A DNA stretch of 64,000 nt. Source: Thermofilum sp. NZ13. GTDB taxonomy: Archaea > Thermoproteota > Thermoprotei > Thermofilales > Thermofilaceae. Shown here one piece after another: positions 36,283-60,367 of the stretch (its first letter is position 1; the number at the start of each line of letters is the position of its first letter). The stretch covers positions 186,001 through 250,000 of the forward strand of contig NDWX01000001.1 in the NCBI GenBank assembly GCA_002855745.1, in the 5' to 3' direction. The position numbers and the translations under genes were made by a program. The notes under the pieces were generated by a model, which made no database searches, had not been told where the DNA came from, and saw nothing but the letters and a program-made list of their open reading frames with translations.

Positions 36283-36851
36283 CTTTAAATTGTCTCTTGA
36301 CTTCCTCCGGCTACCACGCCTCCGCGGACTGCCTCTATGCCATACCCCTCTTTCAATTGTCTCTTGACTTCCTCAGTAACGAGTGGGCCAGTGTCGATTT
36401 AATAGCTGTCGAAGGCTACTTTCAATTGTCTCTTGACTTCCACGTAGTCGTCCTTCTTACGGATCGTCAGGCGCAGCCCTGTCTTCTTTCAATTGTCTCT
36501 TGACTTCCTCTCAAGGTGTTCAAGGAGGAGCTTCCGGTTGAGAACTACCTTTCAATTGTCTCTTGACTTCTTCCTATGACGGGCAAGTCTCTGCTCGCGG
36601 TGCAGAGCGCACTTGAGCTCGTCTTTCAATTGTCTCTTGACTTCTTCCCATCGGACTTCACGAAAACATCCTCGACGCCAGCCTATGCAGGCTTTCAATT
36701 GTCTCTTGACTTCTTCCCATCGGACTTCACGAAAACATCCTCGACGCCAGCCTATGCAGGCTTTCAATTGTCTCTTGACTTCTTCCCATCGGACTTCACG
36801 AAAACATCCTCGACGCCAGCCTATGCAGGCTTTCAATTGTCTCTTGACTTC
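36283..36851 (-). CRISPR. CRISPR array A: 9 repeats, 8 spacers
   Basis: Repeats start at 36283, 36350, 36419, 36486, 36549, 36623, 36692, 36761 and 36830. On the plus strand each is CTTTCAATTGTCTC followed by TTGACTTC (22 bases). Read on the minus strand they end in ATTGAAAG, the common crenarchaeal 5' handle, so transcription runs leftwards from the leader at 36852. The first repeat (36283) is mutated (TTTAAATT), as expected for the leader-distal end. Spacers are 41-52 bases. The three leader-proximal spacers (from 36645, 36714 and 36783, 47 bases each) are identical. The cas genes in the window belong with a different repeat. Confidence 0.97.
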
Positions 36852-37210
36852 CTCCGTTGAATGGTGTGGGAGGGACTATTTAAACGTTCCCTTTTCGGCC
36901 GGCTCCCTGCTCCTCTGCGAACATGCATTTTACTGGGTGCCGCTTCCCGCAGTTGTGATTCCAAGCCCTCCCTGTATTTTAAAAGTTCGCATCATTAATG
37001 AAACTTGAATTATAAAATAACAGGGTTATGTTCCAGCCGAATCCTCCCAGGGAAAACCTTGAATATCGCGAAACTTTTCACTGCTGAAAATAGCGTTTAA
37101 AGAGCTCTCAACACGCTTTGAGCGGTTTTAGCGCACAGGCTATGGCGTCGAGGAGCTTGCCGCTGGGCTACTCCTTGGCGGTGAGCGCAAGGGGTCATTA
37201 GGGGCGCTTT
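36852..37210 (-). promoter_or_regulatory. leader of CRISPR array A
   Basis: AT-rich stretch next to the last repeat, about 75-80 percent identical by eye to 43756-44110 beside array B over some 350 bases (shared blocks include GGTGTGGGAGGG, GCTCCCTGCTC, TATTTTAAAAGTTCGCA and GGTTATGTTCCA). On the minus strand a TATA-like GTTTAAATAG lies about 30 bases before the first repeat. The remaining bases up to the zinc-ribbon gene (37211-37449) carry no convincing gene. Confidence 0.75.
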
Positions 37211-37449: not shown

Positions 37450-37704
37450 TCACGGGTAACGGGTTACCCGCTCAGCCTCTCTGCACTCGTTCTCGAGAAC
37501 CGTGGTAACCTCCTCATAGGGAGCAGGTAGTCTGTGGGAAGCCATGAAGGACGCGTAAGACTCGATGTAGTCGCAGGTGGGGTTCGTGCAGAACAAAAAG
37601 CGCATAACGAGGGTGTCACCGCTCCGAAATAGGCTTAACGCGCTACCGCACTTCGGGCACGTGCTACGGCTCCGGCTACCAGAGTGTTCCCGTGGCCCGC
37701 TCAT
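37450..37704 (-). CDS. zinc-ribbon protein of the NTPase operon
   Basis: An 84-residue protein with a zinc ribbon: CPKCGSALSLF and FLFCTNPTCDYIESY give C-x2-C and C-x4-C, with a basic Ser/Arg leader and an acidic C-terminus. Its ATG overlaps the stop of the 1462-residue NTPase gene (ATGA), so the two are translationally coupled and probably work together. Such ribbons often bind nucleic acid or a partner protein. It is not part of any cas family I know. Confidence 0.75.
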   Translation of the reverse strand: MSGPREHSGSRSRSTCPKCGSALSLFRSGDTLVMRFLFCTNPTCDYIESYASFMASHRLPAPYEEVTTVLENECREAERVTRYP

Positions 37705-40700
37705 AAGAAATCGGTGAGGCGCCTGGAGCCCGCGGCTCCACCTCCCTCTCGCTTGCGACTCCCAGCCCTTCTCCTCACGAAGCTGGAGGAACCCTTGTGA
37801 CCTTTAAGCGCATTGGGTTTTAGTTCCTTGGTTCTGGCGAGCCTGCGCTCCATCATAGCCTTAGCCAGCTCGCGGGCTGTATCTGCCAGAACCTCGGCTA
37901 GACCAAGAATCTCCGCCACCTTCCTATCTATATCCGCTATCACGCTGTCCCAGAGCCTTATCAAGTTCTCATATGTGTCTGCGCCCCCCATTTCTCGCGC
38001 GGCGCCCTCGAGTTTATCGAAGAGCGCAGAGAGCTCCCCCAGCGCCTCATCGTCTAGAGTTCGAGGATCTATGACAGGCATCTCCCTCGCATGCGATACC
38101 TCCAGGCACACTAGCCCTAAGCCTGTTGTTCTGCCGCGCGATTCGATGTAGAGTTGAGAGAAGCTCGAATTAAGGTATGCCAGCAGGGCCTTAAGCTGTC
38201 TTTCATCGAGCTTTACGTTAGGCTTAGGAATAAAGGCTATCATAGCATGATATGTCACCACTCTCTTTTGGTTTAAAATAAAGCGCGTTTTGTACCGTGA
38301 CTGGTATACTGCGAGGATAGGAGCGTCTTCAACCCCACCGAGATCGTACCACCCATAGAAGAGGTTCTTATGCCTCGTTCTCTCTTGGCACGCAAGCGCC
38401 TGGCTACATATCTTTCCACCACCCCTCGTCTCTTTTACCTGCGTCCTGCACTCCGTCTCACCCCATTTTATATAATCCTGAACTCCTTTCGGGAGCTCGT
38501 GCCATGGCTTATGGCATATGAAAAGATAGCAGGCAATGCTACGTTTCCTGAGCTCCTCCCAGTCCTCCTCAGTGAAGGTGAACCACTTAGCGTAGCGGGC
38601 GTTCGTGAGAGCTGGGTAGGCACACTCCGCCAACCTCCATTTCTCAATTTTTCCTTCATTGAGATAGAAGAATTCCTTAGCCCCCACGTCAGGTATTCTT
38701 CTGCTGGAGAGGGCCCAGATAGCGAATTTGTAGTTACCTCTACTCACTTCAAACATTTCGCTCATTTTTACTGTTTTCTGTTTTACTTCATCTAAGATTT
38801 CCTCCGACCTAAAAATAATCCCCAAATTAAGTACAGTAAACTTCAACTCCTCCAACAACCTCTCGGCGGCCTCCTCCGGTTTACTGAAGGGGTACTTAAC
38901 CTTCAGCAGCGGCTTCAAGCTCTCCGCGAGCTCTCTCCTGTCGAGCCGCTCGAGTTGCTCGAGGGCTCTGTGCGCCTCCTCAGCCCACTCGCGCGCTTCC
39001 CTGACGGAGCCCATCCTCAGGTTGGCATACGCCAGCCTTGCTCCCAGCAGGGCCCTCGCGTTAAGACCAACCGCGTCCTCTCTCAGCCCGCTCAGGAAAG
39101 CTTCAACCCTCCCAGCCCACTCTTCCAGCCCCTCGCGTAGTGTCCTCCGTGCGTAGTAGTGTGCATCCTCGTAGAGCGTGCGCGCGAGCTGGTCGAACCT
39201 GTCCAAGCCACCAGCTTCCCGCTCTACGATTCCTAGGAGCTCTGAGGCCAGCCTAGGTTCCCGCATCGAAGCGCTGTGAGCTACGTCTACTGCCTCTAGC
39301 CACCGACCCTCCTCTATAAGCTTCATTGCAAGCCCCATGAGGGCTTTCGAAATGCTGGTCAAGGCGAGTCTTTCCGGCAGTAGCGGTATCGATCTGAGTG
39401 CAAATCCTGTAGCAGGAGCCGCCTCGTCCAAGCACCCCTCAAGCCCTCCTCTCGAGATCGTCAGCGCGCCGAGAGCCGTCAAGAGGAGGTCGGGAGCGTA
39501 CTGCTTTTCCTTCTCGGCTCGCTGGTGAGCGCTTTTCAGGACCTGGCAGGGGTTGACGGCGTCACTGAAGGCGGGGGCAACCTCAACCAGGAACAGCCTG
39601 GCCGAAAATGGCATCTCGCCCCCAATAGTGAGCCACCTCTTAAAATCCTCAGGGAGGTCAGCCTCCTTTAAAAGAGATTTCGCCGAGGGGAGCGCATGAG
39701 CTAGGCCCACTAAAGTTGCGAAGCTCTCCCCATAGTTCTCAATGTCCCTGACCACTTCCTCCTTGAATTCCCGGGCTTTCTCCGCTAGCCTTTTAATAAT
39801 ACTGGAAGCCGCCTCGTCCCTGCTTTCCCCGAGCTTCTCTTTCTTGATTATGTCGCGTAACCGCGCAACAATGACACCGGGGTCGTCTCCCGTGTGATCG
39901 CACACCTTGCTCCCGTAGGCGCACTCTAGGGCCTCCTCCGCCATCCCCTCCAGCACCTCTAGGAGTGAGGGGTGAAGTGGCTGCGTGAGCCAAAGGAAGG
40001 CCGCGTGGCTCTCAGCGCGGTGCGGGTCTCTCCCGAAGGACTCCAGTAGCAAGGCGGCCAGCCCCATGGGAAAGGGGCCGAGGAGGCACGTGGCGAGGAT
40101 CAGCGGGGCGAGCAACCAGGCCTCATCGGATCTCTCCCTCTGGTCTTCGCCGAGCAGCCCATACCAGAGGTAGCTCCTAACGAACTCCTCGATCTTGCCC
40201 TTGCTGTGCTCTATGGCTTCGAGCACCCTCCCCTCATCGCAGCCCGCCTTTCCGAGCCAGTCAGCCGCGAGCACCGCTACAACAGCGTAGTTCTCGCCGA
40301 ACCCGTCTGCGACAAGCTCCGCCAGCTCTTCCGCGACCCTGCTGTCGCAACCGCTGTAAGCCTCCACCAGGGCCCTGACGAAGCCCTTCTTTGCCTCTCC
40401 GAGCACCTCGTCGGCGTCGATAGGCGCTAGGTCCTTGAGTTTTCCCTCAGCTAGGGAGTACTGGTCGTTCGAGAGCACCACGAGGGAGACTGCTCCCTGG
40501 ACTCCCCTCAGGTACTCGATCGCTCTGGAGAGCCGCTCGGCGAAGCCCTCCTCCGGCACGTAAGCCTCCCCGGGGGTTGAGGGGTAGTGTCCTGTCCTTG
40601 AGGGGTCGAGGTAGAGGATCGGGAGGAAGCCAGTCTTCCTGGCCTTCTCGGCGAACTTCTTCAGCCTGTCCTTGTCCACGCTCTGTAGCCTGAGCTCGAG

Positions 40701-42089
40701 GATTACAGGGCTAAGGGCCTCCACACCCTCTTTGGACTCTGTGGGGAGCGCGTCCCGGAGGAGCTTTGCGAGGGCGACGCTCGCGGCGGTGGACTTCCCG
40801 ACACCCTTCCCGCCTTTTACAACGACGACCCCGCCTCCCCTGCGTGCCGCCTCCCTCAGCTCATAAGCAACTTTCTCCTCGAGCGGGTTCGGCACGTAGC
40901 CCACGGTGCCCGTGCCGGTGAGCAGGGCTATGGAGAGCCTGACTGAGCCGTCCTCGAGCTCGACGCCCGGCACCCCGTCGAAGTAGAGGGAGCCCAGCGC
41001 AGCGGAGCCCGCCACCTGGCGTAGCTCCTTCTCTAGCTCTTTAACTCTGTTCTCCAGCTCCCCCACCTTCTGCTTAAGTAACTTCTCCAGCTCCTCCTCG
41101 GTGACCACGCGCCCTCCTGTGAGCCTGTGGAGGTTCTCGACGAAGTTCCGGAACTTCCTGAGGCTCAGGCCCCACTGGCTAGCAACCTCGTCCGCCACCC
41201 CCTCGAACCTCTCATCGCTTACGAACTGCGCCGCGATGATGGCTTTCCTGAGCAGCTCCGCCAGCCGCTCAGGGTACTCCCTCTCCGGAGCGCCGCTACC
41301 CGCGCGGATCAGATCCTCCGCGGCGTCGAGGAGGAGGCTAGGGGAGAAGAGGTAGCCGGCAGCCAGGGCCACAACCCCGGGCAAGCCCCCTACCATCATT
41401 GCGATCACGGAGGCCAAAGCGGCGGCCCCGATCGTGAGGGCCTGCTCGGCGGCCCCCCTTCCCAGCTTGCGCGCCACCTCCATCCCCACGCGCCTCAGCG
41501 CATCAGCCAGCGTAAGCCCGCCGGGGCTCAGAGCCCTCAACGCAGCGGCGCCCTTCTTCAGCTCCTCCCACTCCCCTTTTCCATGGTGCTGAAGGAGCTT
41601 GAGCGAGACTCCCTTGTCGCCACCCTCAGGCTTCACGTTGAAGACCTTGAACACCGCGCTGCAGTCTACCTCCGCCTCCTCAGGCGGCTTAAAGTCACTC
41701 CTCTCCAACTCCTCTTCGTAGATCCTGGGCGTGAAGACTAAAGCGACCTTATCCTCCCCTAGCTTCTCGCGTAGCAGGCTGTAGGCTCTGATCGCCTCTA
41801 TGGTGCTCTCCGGGACCACGATCACCCTCGCGGGGCTTTTCTCCCTGACGTACTCGGCGAGAGTCTTATCGCCTGCGAGCGGCTCTCCGCCCTCAAACCT
41901 CAAAAGCTCGGCGCTACCCCCTGAGGGCTTGTAGCTCACGACCACCGAATCCGGAACCCTCCCGGCAACCCCTAGGCGGGATGAGCCCGGCCCCGCGAGG
42001 ACAACCACGCTTCTACCTTTCTTGAATACCTCTTCAACTCTCTCGGCGGCCCGCTTCACCAGATCCTCGTAGCTGTACTCGCGGCTCAA
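37701..42089 (-). CDS. giant NTPase with methylase-type target-recognition domain
   Basis: A 1462-residue protein. Residues 1-130: Rossmann-like (VVVLAGPGSSRLG, then VIVVPEST). Residues about 215-258: hydrophobic, possibly a membrane hairpin. Residues about 330-362: coiled coil (EELEKLLKQKVGELENRVKE). Residues about 420-560: P-loop NTPase with Walker A GGKGVGKST (426-434), Walker B ILYLDPS (491-497) and a sensor-like VVLSNDQ. Residues about 560-1080: all-helical, with TPR-like stretches (EEGRWLEAVDVAHSAS, LAYANLRMGSVREAREWAEE). Residues about 1100-1360 resemble the target-recognition region of TaqI/Eco57I-type N6-adenine methylases (YGWYDLGGVEDAPILA, VVTYHAMIAFIPK, LKALLAYLNSSFSQLYIESRG, MPVIDPRTL), but no NPPY or SAM motif exists. 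The architecture suggests a STAND-type sensor. TTG start, TATA (ATTTATATAG) about 30 bases upstream. It lies between CRISPR arrays A and B. Confidence 0.85.
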   Translation of the reverse strand: MSREYSYEDLVKRAAERVEEVFKKGRSVVVLAGPGSSRLGVAGRVPDSVVVSYKPSGGSAELLRFEGGEPLAGDKTLAEYVREKSPARVIVVPESTIEAIRAYSLLREKLGEDKVALVFTPRIYEEELERSDFKPPEEAEVDCSAVFKVFNVKPEGGDKGVSLKLLQHHGKGEWEELKKGAAALRALSPGGLTLADALRRVGMEVARKLGRGAAEQALTIGAAALASVIAMMVGGLPGVVALAAGYLFSPSLLLDAAEDLIRAGSGAPEREYPERLAELLRKAIIAAQFVSDERFEGVADEVASQWGLSLRKFRNFVENLHRLTGGRVVTEEELEKLLKQKVGELENRVKELEKELRQVAGSAALGSLYFDGVPGVELEDGSVRLSIALLTGTGTVGYVPNPLEEKVAYELREAARRGGGVVVVKGGKGVGKSTAASVALAKLLRDALPTESKEGVEALSPVILELRLQSVDKDRLKKFAEKARKTGFLPILYLDPSRTGHYPSTPGEAYVPEEGFAERLSRAIEYLRGVQGAVSLVVLSNDQYSLAEGKLKDLAPIDADEVLGEAKKGFVRALVEAYSGCDSRVAEELAELVADGFGENYAVVAVLAADWLGKAGCDEGRVLEAIEHSKGKIEEFVRSYLWYGLLGEDQRERSDEAWLLAPLILATCLLGPFPMGLAALLLESFGRDPHRAESHAAFLWLTQPLHPSLLEVLEGMAEEALECAYGSKVCDHTGDDPGVIVARLRDIIKKEKLGESRDEAASSIIKRLAEKAREFKEEVVRDIENYGESFATLVGLAHALPSAKSLLKEADLPEDFKRWLTIGGEMPFSARLFLVEVAPAFSDAVNPCQVLKSAHQRAEKEKQYAPDLLLTALGALTISRGGLEGCLDEAAPATGFALRSIPLLPERLALTSISKALMGLAMKLIEEGRWLEAVDVAHSASMREPRLASELLGIVEREAGGLDRFDQLARTLYEDAHYYARRTLREGLEEWAGRVEAFLSGLREDAVGLNARALLGARLAYANLRMGSVREAREWAEEAHRALEQLERLDRRELAESLKPLLKVKYPFSKPEEAAERLLEELKFTVLNLGIIFRSEEILDEVKQKTVKMSEMFEVSRGNYKFAIWALSSRRIPDVGAKEFFYLNEGKIEKWRLAECAYPALTNARYAKWFTFTEEDWEELRKRSIACYLFICHKPWHELPKGVQDYIKWGETECRTQVKETRGGGKICSQALACQERTRHKNLFYGWYDLGGVEDAPILAVYQSRYKTRFILNQKRVVTYHAMIAFIPKPNVKLDERQLKALLAYLNSSFSQLYIESRGRTTGLGLVCLEVSHAREMPVIDPRTLDDEALGELSALFDKLEGAAREMGGADTYENLIRLWDSVIADIDRKVAEILGLAEVLADTARELAKAMMERRLARTKELKPNALKGHKGSSSFVRRRAGSRKREGGGAAGSRRLTDFL

Positions 42090-42487
42090 GAACGCTCCAA
42101 TGAATGGCTCCTCGAATGCTATATAAATTTTTGTTTTTGTAAGCTTAATCCCGAGCCTCAGCTACCTTCAGTGGAGCATGACCGTCGCTACGTGACTGCA
42201 GAAACTCGCCTTCTCCAGGCAACGTGTTCGCAGAGTACGGTCGCGGCGGTTCTCCCATCCGGTAGCTCGGCCTGCACCGCTAGCATTGGTCGCTACGCCC
42301 CGTCACCTTTACAGCAACGCCCGCCTCAAATCCCCCCGACCACGCCTTCCGGAGGCCTGCGAGGCATTGCTGGAGCCTTACTGGCCGCGGTAGCGTCCAC
42401 TTCACCGGCATCCCCTATTCGGCCGCGCCTCTAGGAAGCGGCCTTCTGCGCTAGGCCACTCCCCGAGGGGCAGGTGAAGTTGCCGGA
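42090..42487. other. intergenic stretch with a SWIM-like remnant
   Basis: Contains the promoter of the giant NTPase gene (ATTTATATAG at about 42116-42126, minus strand). At about 42163-42200 the minus strand reads FCSHVATVMLH and stop, matching the end of the SWIM-like remnant at 28056-28229. The rest has no convincing gene. Confidence 0.4.
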
Positions 42488-43755
42488 CTTTCAATTGTCT
42501 CTTGACTCCTTCCAGATGTTGTAGGCTACACGAAGGAGGGTGGACCGGTCACCTTTCAATTGTCACTTGACTTCCTTGAATTCCATTAGGCGCGGGCATG
42601 GTCCTCCAGGGAATCCACATTGCAATCTTTCAATTGTCTCTTGACCTCTTCGGCCCCAGCTGGGCATGTGGCCCCAAGTTCCGGGGTTACCCGTCTCTCA
42701 ACTGTCTCTTGACTTCTTTTAAGCGGGAAATGGTCATTCTCTATCAAAAGGGGCAAATCGTTGCTATCTTTCAATTGTCTCTTGAATTCTTCCATCGTGG
42801 AGCATCTCCTGGCGGAAGGCAAGGTGGTGATGATTCTTTCAATTGTCTCTTGGCTTCTTCATTCGCGAAATGACGGCTGATGAAGCGCTTAAGGTCGGCC
42901 CAATGTCCTTTCAATCGTCTCTTGACCTCCTCCGATTTACCCGATTGGGGTATGTGTTGATTGAGAAAATAGGCTTTCAATTGTCTCTTGACTTCTGCTT
43001 GAGTTCGAGGAGACCGTGAGGAGGATCCGGGGCGTGACGGCCAGCCTCTTTCAATTGTCTCTTGACTTCTGCGCGCTCGTAGTCACCGATAATGGCCTTC
43101 ACGGCAGTGATGGACTCCTTTCAATTGTCTCTTGACTTCTGCTTTAGCCCTCTCCTCCTCCTCCTCTGGGCTTATCTCCTCTTTCAATTGTCTCTTGACT
43201 TCTGCAAATCCACCAGGCGATAATAGAGGAGGCTGGCAGACAAAGCCCAGGCCTTTCAATTGTCTCTTGACTTCTGCAGCCGAGGAGCTTAGGAAGCTCC
43301 TCTCCTCGAGCGACGCTTTTCTTTCAATTGTCTCTTGACTTCTGCCTAGGAACCCGGGGTCGCGCGCCGCCTTCTCCTCTATCCACCTATTCTTTCAATT
43401 GTCTCTTGACTTCTGCAACACCGTCACCGCGCAGGATAGGTACACCCCGGGAACCACGCTCTACCTACTTTCAATTGTCTCTTGACTTCTGCAGGAGCGC
43501 GACTCGATGGGGCTGGACTGGATCAATGGCTTTCAATTGTCTCTTGACTTCTGCCGTGGACTACCGTAGCCTAGCCTGGGTTGACTCGGATTGGTACCTT
43601 TCAATTGTCTCTTGACTTCTGCCGTGGACTACCGTAGCCTAGCCTGGGTTGACTCGGATTGGTACCTTTCAATTGTCTCTTGACTTCTGCCGTGGACTAC
43701 CGTAGCCTAGCCTGGGTTGACTCGGATTGGTACCTTTCAATTGTCTCTTGACTTC
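42488..43755 (-). CRISPR. CRISPR array B: 19 repeats, 18 spacers
   Basis: Repeats start at 42488, 42553, 42627, 42695, 42768, 42836, 42908, 42974, 43048, 43118, 43181, 43253, 43321, 43392, 43468, 43530, 43598, 43666 and 43734. They are the same family as array A (CTTTCAATTGTCTC then TTGACTTC) and from 42974 onward continue with TGC, so the full unit is 25 bases. The seven leftmost repeats each carry one or more changes, while the right ones are uniform, so the leader is on the right and transcription is on the minus strand. The three leader-proximal spacers (about 43552, 43620 and 43688, 46 bases counted after the 22-base core) are identical. Confidence 0.97.
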
Positions 43756-44110
43756 TGCCGTTAAACGGTGTGGGAGGGGGTATTTAAGCATTCCTTTTCG
43801 ACCTGCTCCCTGCTCCCTTGCGAACACGCGTTTTACAGCATGCCTCTTCCCGTGGTTGTGACTTCGAACCCTCCCTCTATTTTAAAAGTTCGCACCGTTA
43901 ATAAAACTTGATTAATAAGATAACTCGGTTATGTTCCACCCCAGTCTTCCCAGAAAAAACTTCAAATAACCTGAAATTTTTCACTATTGAAAATAACGTT
44001 TAAAAGGCTCCAGTGCGGCTTTGACTAGGTTTAGCCACGCTGGCTGTGGTGTCGAAGGAGTTCGCTGTTAGACGCCTAGGTGGTGAGTGCAAGGAGTCAT
44101 TAGGAGCATT
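43756..44110 (-). promoter_or_regulatory. leader of CRISPR array B
   Basis: Homologous over about 350 bases to the leader of array A (see 36852-37210), including GGTGTGGGAGGG, a TATTTTAAAAGTTCGCA block and the AAAATAACGTTTAAAAG block. A minus-strand TATA-like CTTAAATACC lies about 30 bases before the first repeat. The homology fades towards 44200. Confidence 0.75.
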
Positions 44111-44551
44111 TTCCGTAACCCGTGAGGCCTCGGGTAAAGTAGTGGGCTCGCTGAGCCAATACTCTTCCGCAACGTAGGCGTGCTTAAGTCTGAGCGCCCT
44201 CTCTTAGAGCGTCTCCTAGGTTGAGGCGGATGCGTTGTTCGCGACAGCGCCCGCGCGGCCTACAGATGGGATTATGGGGTGAGGGGCTCGTATGTCAACG
44301 GGCTGGCCCAGTTCGGGGAGTTGGGGAGGTTTACGAGCCGGAAGCGGGGGAATCTGGAGAGGCTTCCCGAGCGTGAGGTGTAGGAGTGCGCCCTCTGCCC
44401 GACGCTTTGCACGGAGACCCCCTGTGTGGGGATGGTCTCCCGTAGGGAGGTAAGAGGGGCTGCGACTGCCACTGAGGAAGGGTTCAAGTTAACCCGCGAT
44501 CGGGTCTACCTTAGGGCTAGCTTCCAGGACGCCGTGGAGAAGCATAACACG
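44111..44551. other. stretch between arrays B and C without a convincing gene
   Basis: The first part shows fading similarity to the flank of array A. No frame has convincing composition. A palindromic GGGTTCAAGTTAACCC lies at about 44479-44495, shortly before the distal end of array C. Confidence 0.4.
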
Positions 44552-47500
44552 CTCTTAGCCTCGCTTGTTTTAAACAGAGGTATAGAGGCTGGCACAGTCC
44601 TAGAGGTGGCTCTTAGTCTTGCTTGTTTTAAACGAACTATCTTGTTCTCATTGCCGTATTCCCCGCATCTCTTAGTCTTGCTTGTTTTAAACAAGGGGGC
44701 AAGAAACACGCCGACAAACTCTGTTTTCCTCTTAGTCTTGCTTGTTTTAAACACGCGAAGTCCCACAGCTCCTGGGGGTCGACTCTTAGTCTTGCTTGTT
44801 TTAAACCCCACTGGAAACTGCCGAGAGTAGAGCCCGTGAGCCCCTCTTAGTCTTGCTTGTTTTAAACTCAACGGGTGGGCTTACGTGAAAAGCGCTTACT
44901 CTTAGTCTTGCTTGTTTTAAACTTGGTGCTCTTCGAGCTACTGGGAGCGTTCTTCACTCTTAGTCCTTCCAACGCCCGCAAACTCTACTTTTATCTTTCC
45001 TGGGAGCGTTCTTCACTCTTAGTCTTGCTTGTTTTAAACCGAGAGGCAGTAGCACGTTATCCGGATGGTCTCTTAGTCTTGCTTGTTTTAAACCAGCCGT
45101 TTTCGAGCCATAAATTAAGGAGCCACTCTCTTAGTCTTGCTTGTTTTAAACTCCTCCTCATCGGCGCAGAACTCCCACTGCTCGCAACTCTTAGTCTTGC
45201 TTGTTTTAAACCTGCTCATCACCTTCTCTTGCCGGGAAGAACGCCCTCTCTTAGTCTTGCTTGTTTTAAACTATCCTAGCAATGTAAGCAAGGGCTATGA
45301 GCACTCTTAGTCTTGCTTGTTTTAAACCGTTTAGCACTATTGGCTAAACCGGAAAACCCTCTTAGTCTTGCTTGTTTTAAACACGCTAAGCTGTGGCTGG
45401 CGTGGCAGGTGCTCTTCTCTTAGTCTTGCTTGTTTTAAACCCCCTCGCGACCTACCTCCTCGATGCAACCCTCTAGCTCTCTTAGTCTTGCTTGTTTTAA
45501 ACTTGCTCATGCCCATCAACCCCTAAATCGATAACTCTTAGTCTTGCTTGTTTTAAACCTCAGGATTTGGACAACCGGGTCGGGCTCGGCTCTTAGTCTT
45601 GCTTGTTTTAAACTGGAGTCGTGGCTTGAAGAATGTGGGGATATCTCTTAGTCTTGCTTGTTTTAAACGGACCTGACGGTGCCCCAGTGGACATCATAGT
45701 CATGGTGAACTCTTAGTCTTGCTTGTTTTAAACCCGGCCGTTGGGGCTTGCTTGGATGTGGTTGGGTTTTGCATCGTTACCTCTTAGTCTTGCTTGTTTT
45801 AAACTTGAAGTGGCCTGAAGCGTTATGGTTTTCGCTCTTAGTCTTGCTTGTTTTAAACAAAACGCTCCGAAAGGTCACGTCTACCAATCCAATCTCTTAG
45901 TCTTGCTTGTTTTAAACGACTACATGGCGCTGCGCGCCGCCCTGCTGGCGCAGATGCGCGCTCTTAGTCTTGCTTGTTTTAAACTACGCTTGGTTCCGGG
46001 TCCAACCTCGTGAAGAATGCCTCTTAGTCTTGCTTGTTTTAAACCCTGAGCTAGAGCACGTAAAATCTCCATGTCTCTTAGTCTTGCTTGTTTTAAACGA
46101 ACTCGTAGCGTGGGAAGAGACAGCTTACGACTCTTAGTCTTGCTTGTTTTAAACCGGAGTGATAAAGCGGGAGCACGCGAACCGCGGCTTCGTGGGGATA
46201 GCTCTTAGTCTTGCTTGTTTTAAACGCGCGGTATTCATGGTTGCCTTGGCTTTCACAGCTCTTAGTCTTGCTTGTTTTAAACGCTTCTGAGCTAGGCTGG
46301 GATCCTCTGGGTCTCTTAGTCTTGCTTGTTTTAAACGAGAGGGTGGCTGGGAGTGAGGGTGGACGTGTACGATACCGCCTCTTAGTCTTGCTTGTTTTAA
46401 ACTTCTCGAGGATCCTGGACGCCGCAACGCCGTCTCTTAGTCTTGCTTGTTTTAAACTCGTAGCGGGACCAACCTCGTGAAGGATACGCCTCTTAGTCTT
46501 GCTTGTTTTAAACTATCCACATCAGCCTGTCCATGACATACCACACGTCTCTTAGTCTTGCTTGTTTTAAACCCGTCAGTCGGGGAGCTTATCCCACTCT
46601 TCGACAAAGCTCTTAGTCTTGCTTGTTTTAAACTAACGGAAGCGGAGGCGCATTTTAAGGTTTTCTCTTAGTCTTGCTTGTTTTAAACACTTCGACGGCG
46701 TGGACGACTACGTTGCTTTCGGCTCTTAGTCTTGCTTGTTTTAAACGGGCGCCTACCAGCTGGCGGTCGTCTACACCAACGGTACGCACGCCCTCTTAGT
46801 CTTGCTTGTTTTAAACGTACCACTGGTAGCCCGGCGCACCGGTCGGGACTCTTAGTCTTGCTTGTTTTAAACAGAAGATCGGGGCGACGGCGATCTTTCC
46901 GCTCCTCTCTTAGTCTTGCTTGTTTTAAACGATAGATGACGCGGTGGCCTTCCTCACCACCGGCTCTTAGTCTTGCTTGTTTTAAACCAAGTATCTTGCC
47001 GTTACTAACTACAACTACCTCTTAGTCTTGCTTGTTTTAAACGCGGAGTTCTGCTCGAACCCCCATAACCCCCTCCTCTTAGTCTTGCTTGTTTTAAACG
47101 CCGGAGAGGCGGTTGGCGTGAAAAGCTATTACACTCTTAGTCTTGCTTGTTTTAAACCTGCAGCCTTCCCCCGGCCTAACTGGTGCTAACTCTTAGTCTT
47201 GCTTGTTTTAAACTAGTTAATTTCGAGGTATACGGAACCAACGTCTACTCTTAGTCTTGCTTGTTTTAAACACGAGCCACACCTCGAAGCTCTGTTGCAC
47301 GAGGCTCTTAGTCTTGCTTGTTTTAAACGTGGCTATAATCCTGGGCCTCGTGGCATACTTAGAGCTCTCTTAGTCTTGCTTGTTTTAAACCAGTTTCAGT
47401 TTACGCGAGCATTCAGGGAATAGTCTCTTAGTCTTGCTTGTTTTAAACGTGTGGTAGAGGTTGTTTTGAACAAGTTTCTTCGCGAGCTCTCTTAGTCTTG

Positions 47501-48295
47501 CTTGTTTTAAACGCTGCGCCTGTGCCTGCTGCTGGTTTTGCTGATCTCTTAGTCTTGCTTGTTTTAAACTTGTCTGTAAACATCTGATAAGTGCCGCAAC
47601 TTCTTGTAAACCCCGCGCACATCCTCCAAAGACACTCTTAGTCTTGCTTGTTTTAAACCCGTCACGATCGACGACGTGGTGGCGGCCGTGGCTCTTAGTC
47701 TTGCTTGTTTTAAACATGCCGATGCACTCAAACACGAACTCCAGCCAGCTCTTAGTCTTGCTTGTTTTAAACCCAAGACAATCGGCTTGCCGGCTTTCCC
47801 AATACTGGCATCTCTTAGTCTTGCTTGTTTTAAACGCAGTCTCATCGGAGGCATAGTAGAAGCCGTGCCTCTTAGTCTTGCTTGTTTTAAACTTTTATAA
47901 TCCTCGACCAGGGCCTGTGCCTTCGCTCTTAGTCTTGCTTGTTTTAAACCCAGTCCCTCAAGCAACCCGCTCGAATATCTCCTCTTAGTCTTGCTTGTTT
48001 TAAACAAATAGCCTTTAACAGCTGTTATTCACGTGGCAGCTCTTAGTCTTGCTTGTTTTAAACTAGGTATCCCGCACAGCGACAGCCTATACTTCTCTTA
48101 GTCTTGCTTGTTTTAAACGAATACACGGGAAATCATGCCGTAGGCCTCCGTCCCTCTTAGTCTTGCTTGTTTTAAACTTATGCAGTGGATGTGGAATACC
48201 CCCACCACTCTCAGCTCTTAGTCTTGCTTGTTTTAAACACAATCGACGTCTATCCCCATTAGCCCTTGAGTCTCTTAGTCTTGCTTGTTTTAAAC
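44552..48295 (-). CRISPR. CRISPR array C (type I-D): 63 repeats
   Basis: Repeats of 24 bases, on the plus strand CTCTTAGTCTTG then CTTGTTTTAAAC, from 44552 to 48272 at a spacing of about 54-65 bases. The leftmost repeat (44552) is mutated (TTAGCCTCGC) and marks the distal end. The leader is at the right (48296-48409), so the array is transcribed on the minus strand and the crRNA repeat reads as in array D. One unit is disturbed: at 44941-45015 a 25-base segment made of a spacer end plus the first 9 bases of a repeat is duplicated, and the rest of that repeat is replaced. The spacer at 47570-47634 is unusually long (65 bases). Confidence 0.98.
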
Positions 48296-48409
48296 TGGCG
48301 TCTTTTTCTCTGTGTTTTCCTGGTAGTTATGCTTTTCCCCTAAGTGCGGTCTGAAAGGCTCCCGCGCACGGGAGCAAAGCCTCCCAGCGCTTTCAGAGCA
48401 AAGTATTTA
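48296..48409 (-). promoter_or_regulatory. leader of CRISPR array C, inverted copy of leader D
   Basis: 114 bases between the last repeat and the stop codon of cas1. As reverse complement it matches 57580-57693 at 113 of 114 positions. It contains a nested inverted repeat: GCTCCCG-x4-CGGGAGC inside CTGAAAG...CTTTCAG. A minus-strand TATA-like AATATAAATAC marks the promoter end. Confidence 0.9.
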
Positions 48410-48411
48410 TA

Positions 48412-49380
48412 TTACTTATAGGCTCGGCGGTTCCAAATCACTGTGAGTTCAGCGGTAGGAGTACGGCCTTCCAGGTGCGCTGCTAGGCGGTACGCCTTGA
48501 GAATTATGTACTGGTAAATGCTTTTCCCGGTTTTTATGTTTCTTAAAGTCATGTACACGTAGAAGTGCTTTATAACGTCGTTGACGGAGCTTCTGGTCAG
48601 CTCTCCATCTTCGTCTACTGCCGGTAACCCGGTTCTGGAGACCAGCTCGACCATCGCTTGAATAGCCACCGGTCTGAACATCTCTACGTAGTCGAAGGTG
48701 AGCGGGGTCGAGTATCTTGTTCTGTGCAGAAAGCCGTAAGTCGGGTCGAGGCCGGCGGCGAGTAGTGCCTTCGTCGCCAAGGAGTAGAGAACTGCGTACA
48801 TGACGCTTAAACCTTTGTTGAAGGGGTCATTGCTCCTGGGTTTCCTGCCGGACACACCGTAAGTACCCTCAAGAATCGTTCTCTCTCGTTCAGGCAGCAG
48901 CCCAAATATTCTGTCCCAGAGCATGTTCGAGGTTTCAGCTTCCCACGTGCGTAGCTCCCGCTCGTAGACCGACGGGTCACTTGAAGGCTCTGGTTTAGGC
49001 GGTAGTGCTGGGGGATCCTTTCTGTAGTACTTGAGGATGTTCACCATACCTTGAACCTTTGCCTCTAAATAGTGCTGAGCGATGTGAAGGGCATCGGTTT
49101 TGTTCAGCTGGTACTGCAACCTCCTGTAGTTATTGTACCTCGTCACAACTGGACTAGAGAGTATGGATACACCGTCCTGCGTAAGCACGGCTAGAGGGAT
49201 GTTATGCAAGGACAGAACCGCCGGTACAGATGCTTGAATCTTCACGTTACCCCCAATGATTAGAACCGCGTCTACGTCGCGTATGGGTACTTCTTTTTCT
49301 CTGTCGCCGAGCGAAAGGGCCAGCGATGAGCGCCCCTTGATTCTAAGTTCGGCCGTGTCCCTTAACACCAGTAGCTTCAC
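48412..49380 (-). CDS. cas1: Cas1 integrase
   Basis: A 322-residue Cas1. An N-terminal beta domain (LVLRDTAELRIKG, IRDVDAVLIIGGNVKI) leads to a helical catalytic domain with the metal ligands in WEAETSNMLWDRIF (Glu149), GFLHRTRYSTPL (His219) and FDYVEMFRP (Asp230/Glu233). It joins new spacers into the array with Cas2. Last gene of the cas operon, starting directly after cas4 and ending 2 bases before the leader of array C. Confidence 0.95.
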   Translation of the reverse strand: MKLLVLRDTAELRIKGRSSLALSLGDREKEVPIRDVDAVLIIGGNVKIQASVPAVLSLHNIPLAVLTQDGVSILSSPVVTRYNNYRRLQYQLNKTDALHIAQHYLEAKVQGMVNILKYYRKDPPALPPKPEPSSDPSVYERELRTWEAETSNMLWDRIFGLLPERERTILEGTYGVSGRKPRSNDPFNKGLSVMYAVLYSLATKALLAAGLDPTYGFLHRTRYSTPLTFDYVEMFRPVAIQAMVELVSRTGLPAVDEDGELTRSSVNDVIKHFYVYMTLRNIKTGKSIYQYIILKAYRLAAHLEGRTPTAELTVIWNRRAYK

Positions 49381-50013
49381 TTAAATCGCCTTCGAGGGGC
49401 AGAAGCTAGCTAGCTCGCATAGGCTACAGAGGTTGGGGCTCGGCTCAACACGGGCGCCTGTTCTGTTAAGGAGCTTCAGCACCTTAAGCTGGTCTTTCTC
49501 GCAAAGTAGCTTGTACCGCACCTCACGCGGCGAGACTATTATCATACCCACCGGCAACCTCCTCTCATAGTAGAGGGCGAGCCCTCGGAGGAGGGTTTGC
49601 CAGGGCTTTGCGATGTTAATCTTAGAAGAGGTAACCTCTACGTAGAGGACTAGGGGTGACTCAAAAGTTGTCATAGCCGTGATTAGAACGATGTCGGCCG
49701 ATGACCCGGCGCAGAGCCACACGCCCCTGCTTTTGACGCCCAGCTGTAGCCTGTACTCTTCGCTGGAGTCCAAGATCTTAAACTGAGAGCTTTGGAGGTT
49801 CTCCACAACGTTTTTGATGTACTTCTTCATCTGCTCGTGCTTGGATTTGGACTCGCTGGCGGTCGGGTATTCGGGGCTCAGCAACGGCGCAGCGCCCTCT
49901 CTCAGCAGATCCAAGGCGTGTGGGCAAACAAGGGCCCAGCCTAAGAGGTTTAGGTTAGTAAACCTCGAATGTTCGTTCGCGCACGATGTAGTGATCTCTG
50001 CCCTCAAAAACAT
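49381..50013 (-). CDS. cas4: Cas4-like nuclease
   Basis: A protein of about 210 residues with a RecB-like core (AGSSADIVLITAMTT, LYVEVTSSKINIAKPWQTLLRGLALYY) and the Fe-S cysteines: one near the N-terminus (ALVCPHALDLL) and three at the C-terminus (NLCSLCELASFC). Cas4 trims prespacers and checks PAMs. The usual E-x-K motif reads EVT here, which may weaken catalysis. The ATG at 50013 is the last ordinary start before the first Cys and overlaps cas2 by 59 bases. A longer frame to 50229 lies inside cas2 and is unlikely. Confidence 0.85.
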   Translation of the reverse strand: MFLRAEITTSCANEHSRFTNLNLLGWALVCPHALDLLREGAAPLLSPEYPTASESKSKHEQMKKYIKNVVENLQSSQFKILDSSEEYRLQLGVKSRGVWLCAGSSADIVLITAMTTFESPLVLYVEVTSSKINIAKPWQTLLRGLALYYERRLPVGMIIVSPREVRYKLLCEKDQLKVLKLLNRTGARVEPSPNLCSLCELASFCPSKAI

Positions 50014-50245
50014 GTGCCCCCCGGTACTCGTCTTCTCTAACGACGATGATAAACACCGAATCGTCCTCGCCAACGATTTCTCTAGACTTCTCGGCAATGA
50101 GGTTGGCGGTTGTGGATGTTCCTGGACCGGCGTAGACGCTTCTGTTAACTCGAGCGAGGCCCAATCTTCGCAGGTATCTGCGCAACTTTCCTCTCCTCTC
50201 TTCGTCCCCAATATCGTAGGCGACAACAACTATCACCCCTGCCAC
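49955..50245 (-). CDS. cas2: Cas2
   Basis: A 96-residue ferredoxin-like protein: VIVVVAYDIGDEERRGKLRRYLRRLGLARVN is the typical start, with the conserved Asp in YDI and RSVYAGPGT after it. It forms the core dimer of the Cas1-Cas2 integrase. It begins one base after the cas3' stop and overlaps cas4. Confidence 0.93.
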   Translation of the reverse strand: MAGVIVVVAYDIGDEERRGKLRRYLRRLGLARVNRSVYAGPGTSTTANLIAEKSREIVGEDDSVFIIVVREDEYRGAHVFEGRDHYIVRERTFEVY

Positions 50246-52405
50246 CTAGACGAAAACAACAGCGAACTTATCATCCATTACGGCAGCCCCCTCACCCGTA
50301 TAAGAGAGATACTCGGTAAGATCAGGGCTGGAGTCGAGCACGAGCGCAAATGACCCGTCTTGTATGTGCTCCGGCCCGAGCTGAACGTCTCCCACGCTTA
50401 GAGTCCCCTTAACGAGAGTTAAAAGAGTTCGCAGGTCGACTAGCTTTCCCTTGAATGGCTCCAAAGAGACGCCCCGGCGGTAAATTTTAAGGCGATGCCT
50501 GGCTTTCTCTAGAGATATGACCAGCACTCCGTCTTCCAATCCATTAACTGCAAAGTTCCGCGATATGAGGCCGATGCTGGTCTCTCCCTCAGCGCCGGCA
50601 CCACCCACAACGCCCCCCTCGACCCTGTACCTGATGGTGAAACCGCTTCTCCGAAATAGCAGAAGCCTGGCCAATGACTGGGCATCCGATATAACTCCTC
50701 CAAGGATCCTTGCGGCGTCCTCGCTTGTCAGGGACACTTTTTTGAAGAGTGCCGAGGAGCCCGACACCCTAGCGTGCGAGGCGACGGCAACGGAGTATAT
50801 CAGCTTCCTCCTAACCTCGCGGTACCTCTCCGGGATGAGAGCGGCCACGCTCTTCCTCCGCTTAGGGTAGTCTGGGTAGACTTTTGACACCCATGAGACC
50901 AGCTCGTAGTAGCTCATCACGCCAGAGGGGGGCGCCTTTTCCAAGGCCCTCTCCGGAGCCACAAGGTACACTTTGGAGTTCACGCCCCGGCGCCCAACCC
51001 TGCCTATCCTCTGAATCACGTCCTCCGAAGACGTCCCGGCCGTCACCCCGAGGACGACTCTCCCGAGGTTAACGCCCTGCGTGGTCGCCTCGCTCCCCAC
51101 TATCACCCGAGCGCCCGCCCTGCACTCTCCGGCGGGCGTAATGGAGGCGATACAGTCCACCTCGATCCCCGCATCCCGGAGACCACGGACTATCACCGGC
51201 ACCATCCAGAGCCTCTCCGCGATCACGAGAGCCCTGCCGTCGCCGAGCAGCTTAAGCTCGTCCAGCAGGTCATCAAGGACGATCCCCGGGATCTCATCGC
51301 AGGCCTCGTAGAAGGCCGCCAAGCCCCCTTTGGTGGTTTTGACGGGGATCACTTCAAATAAGGTCTCTCCCCTCACGGCGAAGCCCCCGAGCCCGTTCAT
51401 AACCTCGGCTTCCACTTTTTCTGGCCTTAGCTCAACTCCCCACTCTCCCAGGGTGTCCGAGAGCTCCGTCAGGGTATCGGACGCGGGTGTTGCGGAGGAG
51501 AACACCACAGGCAATTCGACGAAGTCCTTGTATATCTTGAGCAGGGCCGCGAGCGCGTCGAGCTCGTAGGGGTCGTAAAGGTGGAACTCGTCAACGAAGA
51601 GCGGGAAGCCGAGCCTCTGGAAAACGGCAACCGCCTCGTCTGCTTCGCCTCGCGTCAGGGCGCCGGTCTCCCTCAGCACGTCTTCGAGCTCCTCCTTGCG
51701 GAACCCACGTGCCAGCGCCACCAGCATGTTGTGAACTGTCCTGCCGACACCCTCGAAGTCCCTGTAAGCCCCCGTGGAAACGAGGAGGTATGTATCAGGG
51801 GTGGCGAAGACGATCAGGTACAGCCCGCCCCTCCTAGTGTACTCCATCGCTTTCCTAACGAGCCCGTAGAGGATCTCCCTCTTCGACTTTCCATCGGTTG
51901 AGACGATGTACCTTCCCGAGAGAGCTAGAAGCCCCACGTGCTCGTAGCAAGCCCACGCGTCCCCGCAGCTATTTACGTCGACGTTGTAGATAGTGAGCGG
52001 CTCCACGCACGCATCGTCAGAGAGGTGCAGGCACTCGCACCTTCGAGGCGCAGGGGCCTCTGAGCAGTGCTCGCCGCCGCAGAGGCCTGAGGAGTATTCA
52101 AGCCTCCCACCCATGTGCTCAACGATAATATCCTCAACGGTGCACAGCTGGTTCCTGAGCAGGGTGTTGTTCGGATACAGCGCGACGAAGCCCCGCAATC
52201 CCGTCTCCCCGTGCTCCGTGTTCAGCAGAAGGGTGAGGGTTTTACCGCCACCCGTCGGGGCCACGAGCAGAACGTCCCTGCCGTGATCGTTGATGAGGCG
52301 CCTTACGGCCAACTGAAACTGGTTCAGCTGGAGGGAGCTGGAGAGGTAGCTCCCCGCGAACGGGATGGAGAATGCCGGGACTCTAAACGTGTATCCACCA
52401 CTCAC
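50246..52405 (-). CDS. cas3: type I-D Cas3' helicase
   Basis: A 719-residue superfamily 2 helicase: Walker A APTGGGKT (about residues 49-56), DEFH box in VDEFHLYDPYEL (272-275), SAT motif (304-306) and the motif VI QRIGRVGRRG. The DEFH box and the lack of an HD nuclease domain are typical of subtype I-D, where the HD domain sits on Cas10d. A cysteine cluster (CGGEHC, CECLH) at about 109-126 may bind metal. The start overlaps csc1 by 4 bases. Confidence 0.92.
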   Translation of the reverse strand: MSGGYTFRVPAFSIPFAGSYLSSSLQLNQFQLAVRRLINDHGRDVLLVAPTGGGKTLTLLLNTEHGETGLRGFVALYPNNTLLRNQLCTVEDIIVEHMGGRLEYSSGLCGGEHCSEAPAPRRCECLHLSDDACVEPLTIYNVDVNSCGDAWACYEHVGLLALSGRYIVSTDGKSKREILYGLVRKAMEYTRRGGLYLIVFATPDTYLLVSTGAYRDFEGVGRTVHNMLVALARGFRKEELEDVLRETGALTRGEADEAVAVFQRLGFPLFVDEFHLYDPYELDALAALLKIYKDFVELPVVFSSATPASDTLTELSDTLGEWGVELRPEKVEAEVMNGLGGFAVRGETLFEVIPVKTTKGGLAAFYEACDEIPGIVLDDLLDELKLLGDGRALVIAERLWMVPVIVRGLRDAGIEVDCIASITPAGECRAGARVIVGSEATTQGVNLGRVVLGVTAGTSSEDVIQRIGRVGRRGVNSKVYLVAPERALEKAPPSGVMSYYELVSWVSKVYPDYPKRRKSVAALIPERYREVRRKLIYSVAVASHARVSGSSALFKKVSLTSEDAARILGGVISDAQSLARLLLFRRSGFTIRYRVEGGVVGGAGAEGETSIGLISRNFAVNGLEDGVLVISLEKARHRLKIYRRGVSLEPFKGKLVDLRTLLTLVKGTLSVGDVQLGPEHIQDGSFALVLDSSPDLTEYLSYTGEGAAVMDDKFAVVFV

Positions 52406-53095
52406 TCAACATCCCTCAATGCGGGAAGAGATACCCGGATCGATCGCCCACCGCTCTGCACTAAGTAAGTGTACCCCCGCGTCGCCCTCCCGAAGGCTGC
52501 CACGCTACCTGCCTCGTGCGGAAGCAAAACCGTGGAGCCGATGACTTCCACGGTATCCGCCACGTTGAACGGGTGGCTTACCTCGACGTTAACCTCTTCT
52601 CGCGGCTCCACTCGGTGGAGTCGCACTCTAAGCACGCCCCGCCTCTTCGTGCCAATCTCCACAACCACATACTCGGGCAACTCGTGCTCCGATATGATGA
52701 GGGTTCTGAGCTCGCTCCCAGGCATAAGGATCGTAACCTTCGTGTACACCGGGTACGCGAGTCTACCTTGCCCCCTAATCATTACATTCCCCTCATTGGA
52801 TGCGGCCATCAGCGTCTCTTTTAGCAGGGCCCTGGTCACCAGAAGTGGGTAGGCGTAAACCCCGTACCTCGCGAAGAGCTCGAGGGGCTTCTTGTACTTG
52901 GTTTTCCCGAACAGCGAGGCGTAGCCTACGTCGGGGTCAACGGCGAAACCTGAGAGCGCGAGCGTGAAGCCGTAGTTGTGGAAAACCAGGTTCGGTTGGC
53001 TTATGTAGAAGTCGGTGGAGGGTTGAGATTTAGCGTGGTGCCAGAGGAAGCCCTCAACCTTCGCCTCGGCGTGATAGAAGTGGAGCGTTGTGCAT
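52402..53095 (-). CDS. csc1: Csc1 (Cas5d), with an apparent frameshift just after the start
   Basis: A protein of about 230 residues of the Cas5 group of type I-D: LHFYHAEAKVEGFLW, then FYISQPNLVFHNYGFTLALS, KYKKPLELFARYGVYAYPL and ATRGYTYLVQSGGRSIRV. It caps the crRNA 5' handle in the effector complex. The Csc1 frame has no ATG, GTG or TTG upstream of LHFYH. The only ATG (53093-53095, GGAGG about 20 bases before it) is one base out of frame: removing one A in CACAAC gives M-H-T-L-H-F-Y-H. Either a sequencing indel or a non-standard start is at work. Confidence 0.8.
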
Positions 53096-53102
53096 CCCCG
53101 CT

Positions 53103-54185
53103 TTACTGTTCTTCCGACGCCTCCTGTCTCTTGCCGCCTCTCCTTCCCTTACCCCTCTGCCCTTCTCCGCGCATGGACTGTATGAGCCCGTGCATCTGCT
53201 CGACGTAATCAATGCTACTCTGCCAGAGCTCTTTGAAGATGCCATCCTTCTCAATAGGGTTGACCGCCCGCGTAACGTCCTCGTTGCTCAGCTTTGAAAA
53301 GCCGAGCTCATTGAGCCGCTTCAAAACGCCCTCAAGATCCCAAACGTTTCTCCCCGCATACTCTTCGGCCAGCTCCAGGGCCGTAGTCTTCGAGTAGTTT
53401 CCGCACCTAATGCCGAGCAGCTCCATCCTTATCCCTCCGAAGATGCTACTCCTCCCGCCTATCTCCTCTGTAGTTGCTAAGGAGTACAAGACAGCGAGTA
53501 GCTCTGGTAGAGTTACGTCGTGAAGCACGACCCTGCCCATAAAAACCGTCCCGGGCATGACGTGAACATCGCTGAAAAGCGCTCCACCGGTCGTGGAGGC
53601 GTAGCCCTCTGAGACCTTGTTGTGGGTCTCGGGTTGTATAGCACGAGTCGTCGCGAAAGCGGGGTCAAAGTGAACCCTGCTTTTGAGACCGATGCTCATC
53701 GTTCCTCCGGCTTCCTCGTACTGGTTCTGTGTGAGGGCGGCCCCGAATATTGTGCAAGCCGGGCAGTAGCCGTCTATCCCAAGGTCGGTTGCTTTCTCTC
53801 CACCACTTGCGAGCGGTGGCTGTATCGTGCACTCCCACCCGTTGGTCAGGTGTTCCTCGGCTTTCCTAAAGCCCATCTCCTTTGCTTTAAGTATGAAGGG
53901 CCTAAGGTCGGCGCCGGAGTCGCGGTATTGCCTGAGCAACTGCAGCATCCTCCTTCTAACGACCGCCATTATTTTCTGCGGTTGTATGACTGGCACGCTT
54001 ATACCCGATTTGGGCAAGGTGGCCTCGTTTATGTCTCCGGGTCCCTCGGTTCGCAGGAGCAGGAAGTTGACCGCCTTCACCGCGAACACGACTTCGACTC
54101 TTTTACCGTTGGGGAAGAGTCTGCCTTTTTCGCCGACACCACGTAGGCACGGCTTTACAGAGCTAATCCACTCGGGCTGGCTCAC
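53103..54185 (-). CDS. csc2: Csc2 (Cas7d) backbone protein
   Basis: A 360-residue RAMP protein of the I-D Cas7 family. Diagnostic are the zinc-like site IDGYCPACTIFGAAL, TMSIGLKSRVHFDPAFA, and the glycine-rich EEIGGRSSIFGG near residue 245. It coats the crRNA spacer. The C-terminus has a basic Gly/Arg tail (RGKGRRGGKRQEAS). It overlaps the small gene upstream by 4 bases and precedes csc1 by 8 bases. Confidence 0.93.
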   Translation of the reverse strand: MSQPEWISSVKPCLRGVGEKGRLFPNGKRVEVVFAVKAVNFLLLRTEGPGDINEATLPKSGISVPVIQPQKIMAVVRRRMLQLLRQYRDSGADLRPFILKAKEMGFRKAEEHLTNGWECTIQPPLASGGEKATDLGIDGYCPACTIFGAALTQNQYEEAGGTMSIGLKSRVHFDPAFATTRAIQPETHNKVSEGYASTTGGALFSDVHVMPGTVFMGRVVLHDVTLPELLAVLYSLATTEEIGGRSSIFGGIRMELLGIRCGNYSKTTALELAEEYAGRNVWDLEGVLKRLNELGFSKLSNEDVTRAVNPIEKDGIFKELWQSSIDYVEQMHGLIQSMRGEGQRGKGRRGGKRQEASEEQ

Positions 54186-54655
54186 TCCGCCTCACCCTCA
54201 CTCTCCTTATCGCTCTTTGGCTTAAAAAATGTATCTGCAATCTCCTTGCCTACCGGCGACAATTGCTTAGACCTTGCTATGTTTGCTAGAGCGGCTGTGA
54301 TCATGTTCATTAGCCTTATCCTAGCGCCGATCGGAAGCTTATCTCCCACCTCCCTGAACCTAGTTAGCATGCCCGCAATGAGCTCTCTGAAGCACTTTCT
54401 AGCCTCCGGGGATTTGAGGTCATCAGGTATGTTAGAGTCGGCTATTATAGGAATCATCTCGTCCGCCTTGTCCCAAAAGCTGAAGAGTAGTTCTTCCAAG
54501 GCCTTTCTAACCTCCTTAACATAGGCGTGCGTGGATTTCTCCCCATGTCTCAGCGGTCCGAGAATGCCGGAAAGCGCGGATACGTAGTAGGATAGAAACC
54601 TATCGGGCTTGTAACCACACAGCTCGACAGTTTCCTTCACTTCTTCACTCATCAT
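54182..54655 (-). CDS. putative separate small subunit (Cas11d-like)
   Basis: A 157-residue all-helical protein: RFLSYYVSALSGILGPLRHG, VRKALEELLFSFWDKADEMI and RIRLMNMITAALANIARSKQ. It sits between cas10d and csc2, overlapping both by 4 bases, exactly where a small-subunit gene would be expected. In characterised I-D systems Cas11d is made from an internal start of cas10d, and here cas10d looks short. Assignment to Cas11d rests on position, size and helicity, not on motif identity. Confidence 0.6.
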   Translation of the reverse strand: MMSEEVKETVELCGYKPDRFLSYYVSALSGILGPLRHGEKSTHAYVKEVRKALEELLFSFWDKADEMIPIIADSNIPDDLKSPEARKCFRELIAGMLTRFREVGDKLPIGARIRLMNMITAALANIARSKQLSPVGKEIADTFFKPKSDKESEGEAE

Positions 54656-56496: not shown

Positions 56497-56551
56497 CTTA
56501 ATTCTCCTGAAGCACGCTCATTTAAATTTAATGTTGTAACCCCACCGATGT

Positions 56552-56626
56552 GGGTTCAAGGACGCTACTCGGGCGAGCCAGTGCGTTCTCCACTGGAGCA
56601 AAAAAGGCGGTAAGCCTTATGAACCC
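56552..56626 (+). other. cloverleaf-like inverted-repeat element
   Basis: A closing stem GGGTTCA (56552-56558) with TGAACCC (56620-56626) encloses three stem-loops: CTC/GAG (56568-56577), CCAGTG-CGTTCTC-CACTGG (56578-56596) and AAGGC-GGTAA-GCCTT (56604-56618). The layout recalls a tRNA, but the 7-base loop has G instead of U33 and there is no TTCRA loop, so it is not a working tRNA. It may be a regulatory RNA, an operator cluster or a decayed tRNA. Confidence 0.45.
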
Positions 56627-56646
56627 CGTGAACTTCCAAGTGTTGT

Positions 56647-56670: not shown

Positions 56671-56745
56671 GGAAGTGCCCCTGACGCTTGAAGCACGATT
56701 TGCTGGTACACAGAAAGTGAAACTGCTTTAGCGGGGGGTGGGCAC

Positions 56746-60287: not shown

Positions 60288-60367
60288 ATAATTGTTAAGG
60301 TAAGAATCGCATGATTTAAATAAAAGTTTTTTTATGATTTATTGCACGTGGATGGGATAAAGATTTG

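Follow-up and report, generated by a model that had tools for sequence, protein, structure and literature searches.

Results

A chimeric gene and its zinc-ribbon partner

The window, i.e., the whole stretch of 64,000 nucleotides of Thermofilum sp. NZ13 that was analyzed, contains a gene for a large NTPase with the target-recognition domain (TRD) of a DNA methylase at its C-terminus, and an overlapping small gene (Table 1). Both open reading frames had been proposed in an initial annotation, and both were confirmed. The TTG start of the NTPase-TRD gene is supported by its paralogues, which begin at the same position behind the same TATA box; the box and its spacing are similar in four other NTPase gene copies, some of which differ by one or two bases. 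The small protein (P0002) has the zinc-ribbon pattern CPxC...CxxxxC and matches Zn_ribbon_Top1 with E=8.6e-5, which is under the curated Pfam cut-off. Over about 70 residues it shares 36-43% identity with a zinc-ribbon SF1-helicase-like protein of Caldivirga, at the N-terminus of the latter. The match is weak (E 2e-4 to 1e-3) but falls at a fitting position. The possibility that the gene is left over from a truncated helicase was considered; no more helicase sequence was found downstream. The Caldivirga helicase-like gene, which reads as two frames, is oriented divergently to a TRD-bearing methylase gene (L078: 3831-6041 (-) and 6081-9479 (+)), and a shortened version adjoins another TRD-bearing methylase gene (L091:999-1166 (-)). 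An Rfam scan of positions 28-62 kb of the window yielded zero matches above the gathering score.

Table 1. Features of the NTPase-TRD locus and its surroundings (window positions)
Feature	Position	Strand	Remarks
Chimeric STAND NTPase-TRD gene	37701..42089	(-)	1462 codons, TTG start
TATA box TTTATATA, archaeal	42120..42127	(-)	38 nt upstream of NTPase-TRD start
Block 1, codons 1-336, N-terminal Rossmann/P-loop-like part and hydrophobic helices	41082..42089	(-)	DNA including promoter 72-78% identical to all paralogues
Block 2, codons 337-789, divergent STAND NTPase block	39723..41081	(-)	no DNA-level match to paralogues
Walker A	40788-40814	(-)	in block 2
Walker B	40599-40619	(-)	in block 2
Block 3, codons 790-1087, helical region common to paralogues	38829..39722	(-)	72-77% DNA identity
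Block 4, codons 1088-1462, type IIG methylase TRD and basic tail	37704..38828	(-)	from homology and G+C
PCNA-interacting-like peptide LTDFL, C-terminal	37704..37718	(-)	same tail type in 14 of 17 TRD-family tails
Zinc-ribbon gene, 84 aa	37450..37704	(-)	overlaps NTPase stop via ATGA
CRISPR array A	about 36.2-36.9 kb
CRISPR array B	about 42.5-43.8 kb
Tandem spacer units, array A	36623-36855
Tandem spacer units, array B	43530-43761
CRISPR-Cas locus, type I-D-like	48412-57582		Csc2 family, Cas1, DEAD helicase, Cas6-like
Arrays flanking the CRISPR-Cas locus	44531-48390; 56647-60300		same repeat, opposite orientations

The gene pair is flanked by CRISPR arrays A and B, which have one common repeat and leaders that are 80% identical. 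In both arrays, three copies of the leader-proximal spacer unit follow each other in tandem, with at least 99% identity. A type I-D-like CRISPR-Cas locus with flanking arrays of its own is also found in the window. The position between two arrays, emphasized in the initial annotation, was thus confirmed, but the setting is incidental, because L084 is the only other NTPase locus examined with an array nearby and a complete genome of the same species contains CRISPR-cas at the matching site without the NTPase-TRD gene. CRISPR association as a feature of the NTPase family was therefore rejected.

The NTPase family

The Walker A motif GGKGVGKST comprises residues 426-434 and the Walker B motif ILYLDPS residues 491-497. 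The P-loop and the DP...Y residues are invariant across 21 homologues, and the profiles matched by these family members include nSTAND3 (18/21), NB-ARC (7/21), TPR_12 (7/21), and AAA_16. The window protein alone stays under the Pfam cut-offs (AAA_16 E=0.005, nSTAND3 E=0.3). A fold search with a model of residues 1-790 (pLDDT 55) retrieved Cdc6/Orc1, CED-4, Apaf-1, NLRP2, and NOD2, with E-values of about 2.5e-4 to 4e-3 and low TM-scores, and a PDB sequence search with the NTPase gave generic P-loop matches only. The NTPase region is common to the branches of the family, while the C-terminal region varies among them. The protein has an intact Walker A motif, an acidic Walker B residue, and a repeat-containing or variable C-terminal region, and the profile matches of its family and the fold search identify it as an NTPase of the STAND/ORC-Cdc6 clade. 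Family profiles and invariant residues hence bear out its earlier description as a STAND-type NTPase with Walker A and B motifs. Searches of the window protein against Pfam, NCBIfam, and PADLOC revealed no N-terminal effector family.

The distribution of the family is patchy, with members in 23 of 398 Thermoproteota genomes at E<=1e-15. Relatives are found in Caldivirga, Thermoproteus, Vulcanisaeta, a Sulfolobales genome, Methanodesulfokora, and a Calditenuaceae genome. Contigs C4 and C33, as well as a genome of the same species, encode paralogues of about 1440 aa, and decayed copies are a fragment with a stop codon (C29) and a fragment in the same-species genome (G013). The literature searched contained no description of this archaeal STAND NTPase family. 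In three scans of viral contigs, neither the full protein nor its NTPase or TRD had a relative; phage and plasmid records had no NTPase match, and the only TRD relatives in them were haloarchaeal methylases.

The C-terminal target-recognition domain

The C-terminal part of about 370 residues is homologous to the TRD of type IIG-like N6-adenine methylases. In PADLOC, residues 1136-1358 align with positions 297-494 of the 539 positions of the MTase_II profile, i.e., its specificity part (E=1.3e-16); the Pfam matches of the C-terminus are weak (M_Eco57I_C E=0.16, TaqI_C E=0.22). The closest methylase TRD is 60% identical, and 47 of the 48 residues that are invariant among other full-length enzymes are kept. 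A C-terminus unrelated to methylase TRDs would have spoken against the initial proposal, which is instead substantiated by the PADLOC match and the homology to full-length methylases. The 1462-aa protein contains no SAM-binding motif, NPPY motif, or PD-(D/E)XK nuclease. Structure prediction of the TRD was unusable (pLDDT 34.7), and the PDB sequence search gave no match for it.

The TRD occurs in 22 of 398 Thermoproteota genomes. This genome encodes only two Eco57I-type methylases, both full-length (1229 and 1142 aa), with TRDs that are about 41% and 30% identical to that of the window, and no cognate methylase for the window TRD was found in it. A protein of 1225 aa on contig C4 has an N6-methylase domain, a related TRD (41-48% identical by alignment), and an N-terminus that by eye reads like a PD-(D/E)XK nuclease. 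Judged from their divergence, its TRD and the window TRD probably read different sites. In another genus (G002), a methylase gene with the same TRD (L026:7363-9189 (-)) is 5'-truncated and lacks NPPY, and therefore looks like a decaying gene.

The protein terminates in RRLTDFL. A basic linker followed by an LxxFL/LxxFF-like motif is present in 14 of 17 tails of the TRD family, compared to a background of 12 in 255 proteins. Archaeal type IIG-like methylases with this TRD thus have a C-terminal PCNA-interacting-like (PIP-like) peptide in common (L134, L137, L138, L140, L141, L061, L062, and L009:14753-18430). Archaeal PCNA-interacting peptides resemble this tail motif, and an adenine-specific methylase co-purifies with PCNA and NucS (PMC4929162). 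From these similarities we infer that the LTDFL tail may bind PCNA.

Mosaic structure of the gene

At the DNA level, recombination has made the NTPase-TRD gene a mosaic with sharp edges. Neither the mosaic nor the paralogues had been part of the initial annotation. Blocks 1 and 3 are closely related to the paralogues, in contrast to block 2, for which protein identity to the paralogues is 20-43%; identity along the protein tracks the DNA-level block pattern. The model of block 1 has low to moderate confidence. The edges of block 3 coincide, at the same base or within 1-2 bases, in the copies from C33, C4, and G013, and the decayed copy L025 has the same left end. At residue ~1088-1092, the tail of about 350 aa of the paralogues is swapped for the TRD. 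Position 45 of M_Eco57I_C corresponds to residue 1136, and by extrapolation position 1 would be near residue 1092, close to the junction. The G+C content is 0.51 in the TRD versus 0.60-0.64 in the remaining gene, and 0.44 at the locus with the closest TRD. Therefore, the TRD looks recently acquired from outside. The fusion, known from a single genome, may be young.

Genomic neighborhood of the family

Homologues of the NTPase are found near adenine methylase genes in five arrangements, and also near genes for BrxL, Hma/BREX-like helicases, HerA, and a CARF protein. At L078 (Caldivirga) the neighbors encode a TRD-bearing methylase, the CARF protein, and the zinc-ribbon SF1-helicase-like protein, so that one 19-kb contig holds helicase, methylase, and NTPase homologue. 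At L087 a PglX-like Eco57I methylase, BrxL, and the NTPase are encoded consecutively on one strand, and another Eco57I methylase gene is the neighbor at L085. DUF1156 methylases and an Hma-type helicase or ATPase are encoded at L090 and L092-L094, and HerA and DrmA/DpdJ-like helicases at L082 and L084. In several Thermoproteaceae genomes (L087, L088, L092, L093, L094), the NTPase homologue is followed by a conserved set of small uncharacterized genes, in most cases together with a HerA-like gene. These neighbors agree with the defence context suggested earlier, which homologues lying consistently outside defence islands would have contradicted.

In 20 genomes with about 33 NTPase places, 6 of 28 methylase sites were near such a place versus 0.54 expected (P about 2e-5, a rough value that treats sites as independent and is inflated by defence islands). 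The linkage need not mean partnership, because defence genes cluster in islands. The repeated proximity to adenine methylase and BREX/Hma-like genes makes the wider archaeal STAND family a candidate defence component.

Discussion

Other immune systems combine some of these elements. STAND receptors such as Avs and bNACHT, and nSTAND3 proteins, likewise have a central STAND/ORC-Cdc6-like NTPase, a long helical C-terminus that differs among members, a patchy spread, and a defence neighborhood. Avs proteins carry an N-terminal effector (nuclease, TIR, or protease) and sense the phage terminase or portal. The window protein differs from Avs and bNACHT in having a methylase TRD as its putative C-terminal sensor and no recognised N-terminal effector. 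With type IIG enzymes of the Eco57I class and with PglX it shares the C-terminal TRD with a basic tail and a terminal peptide, but it is devoid of the nuclease, SAM-binding domain, and NPPY motif of these enzymes, and its TRD is fused to an NTPase. In the Dnd phosphorothioate restriction system, DndH is similar in that a TRD is part of a large protein with an ATPase and without an active methylase; however, DndH comprises an inactive methylase, an REase, and a HerA/FtsK ATPase (PMC10853773), whereas the window protein has a TRD and a STAND NTPase only. BREX loci combine PglZ with BrxC, and BR (Hma) loci a DUF499 ATPase with a methylase and a helicase. The PglX-like/DUF1156 methylases, BrxL, and Hma-type helicases adjoining some homologues resemble parts of these systems, but the window ORFs scanned next to the gene included no recognisable PglZ, BrxC/DUF499, or helicase, and the BREX STAND subunits BrxB and BrxF are described as inactive and without a TRD (PMC12839542, PMC8565338). 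The other ~30 NTPase loci and the other ~28 TRD loci contain no fusion of the same TRD to the NTPase. As far as the searches reach, the STAND-TRD fusion is thus a new architecture, present in one genome, in agreement with the initial statement that no similar layout was known.

The reading that we favor, although with slightly less than even confidence, is that the protein is a modular archaeal defence receptor of the nSTAND3/ORC-Cdc6-like AAA+ type, in which recombination exchanged the helical C-terminal sensor for a type IIG TRD. At rest, the NTPase block would be restrained. Engagement of the TRD by its target, either a DNA site or a TRD-binding viral protein, would lead to nucleotide exchange, oligomerisation of the NTPase, and an output via the N-terminal region or the partner. 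The coupled zinc ribbon would aid nucleic-acid binding, and the PIP-like peptide may target the receptor to PCNA and to DNA under replication. It had been proposed that a borrowed TRD senses self versus non-self DNA or its modification state. The borrowed TRD is borne out, but sensing of methylation is weakened by the failure to find a cognate methylase in this genome; it would be easier to reconcile with the data if the site were protected by the C4 or C5 enzyme.

Because the gene is a recombination mosaic, a chance fusion has to be considered. Recent illegitimate recombination could have brought together a truncated NTPase copy and the 3' end of a methylase gene that had entered the genome, and the resulting protein would then have no selected role. 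The restriction to one genome, the decayed NTPase copies in the species, the base composition of the TRD, which is not adjusted to the host, the missing cognate methylase, and the truncated methylase gene of G002 are all in line with this explanation. On the other hand, all 1462 codons are open and in frame, the junction lies at a domain boundary, the promoter is intact, all NTPase invariants are kept together with 47 of the 48 TRD invariants, and another block was also swapped cleanly. In a recent fusion, however, the intact frame, the exact placement of the junction, and the kept residues could persist anyway. Synonymous sites of the TRD were saturated in a dN/dS analysis, and codon-position tests brought no decision for or against a chance fusion. 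We regard a non-adaptive origin as the main alternative, though one with clearly less than an even chance.

It is unlikely that the TRD is instead a tether to DNA or PCNA, which would bring the NTPase to particular DNA sites within a restriction-like complex that also contains the C4 methylase and the zinc ribbon. About 3.2 kb separate the full-length IIG-like enzyme on C4 from an NTPase paralogue, the tail is PIP-like, and in DndH, too, a restriction subunit with an ATPase carries a TRD (PMC10853773), but the two TRDs share only about 41% identity and the C4 locus is on a different contig.

A further version of the receptor, which we consider less probable still, is an integrated decoy. The TRD would guard restriction-modification instead of serving as a DNA reader in its own right, and a viral anti-restriction protein, e.g., a DNA mimic, that binds to it would switch the receptor on. 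Plant NLRs carry copies of effector targets in this way. A decoy would account for the presence of the TRD in a genome in which no cognate methylase was found and for a defence family that is allied with methylases. The DNA mimic Ocr can block a methylase-based defence, BREX (PMC7261183). An assembly artefact that joined two unrelated genes is conceivable for a draft of 33 contigs, but very improbable, as there is no orphan 5' methylase half, both Eco57I-type methylases are full-length, and the divergent NTPase block and the TRD each occur only at this site in the genome.

Taken together, the analysis points to a real STAND-TRD fusion within a family of likely defence genes, and to a candidate virus sensor made from parts of a restriction enzyme. 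If the favored receptor is functional, STAND receptors can gain sensors from restriction-modification enzymes via clean domain exchange, and two large branches of prokaryotic immunity would be linked. It would then also represent a testable archaeal receptor, either a reader of DNA sequence or a guard of restriction enzymes against viral inhibitors.
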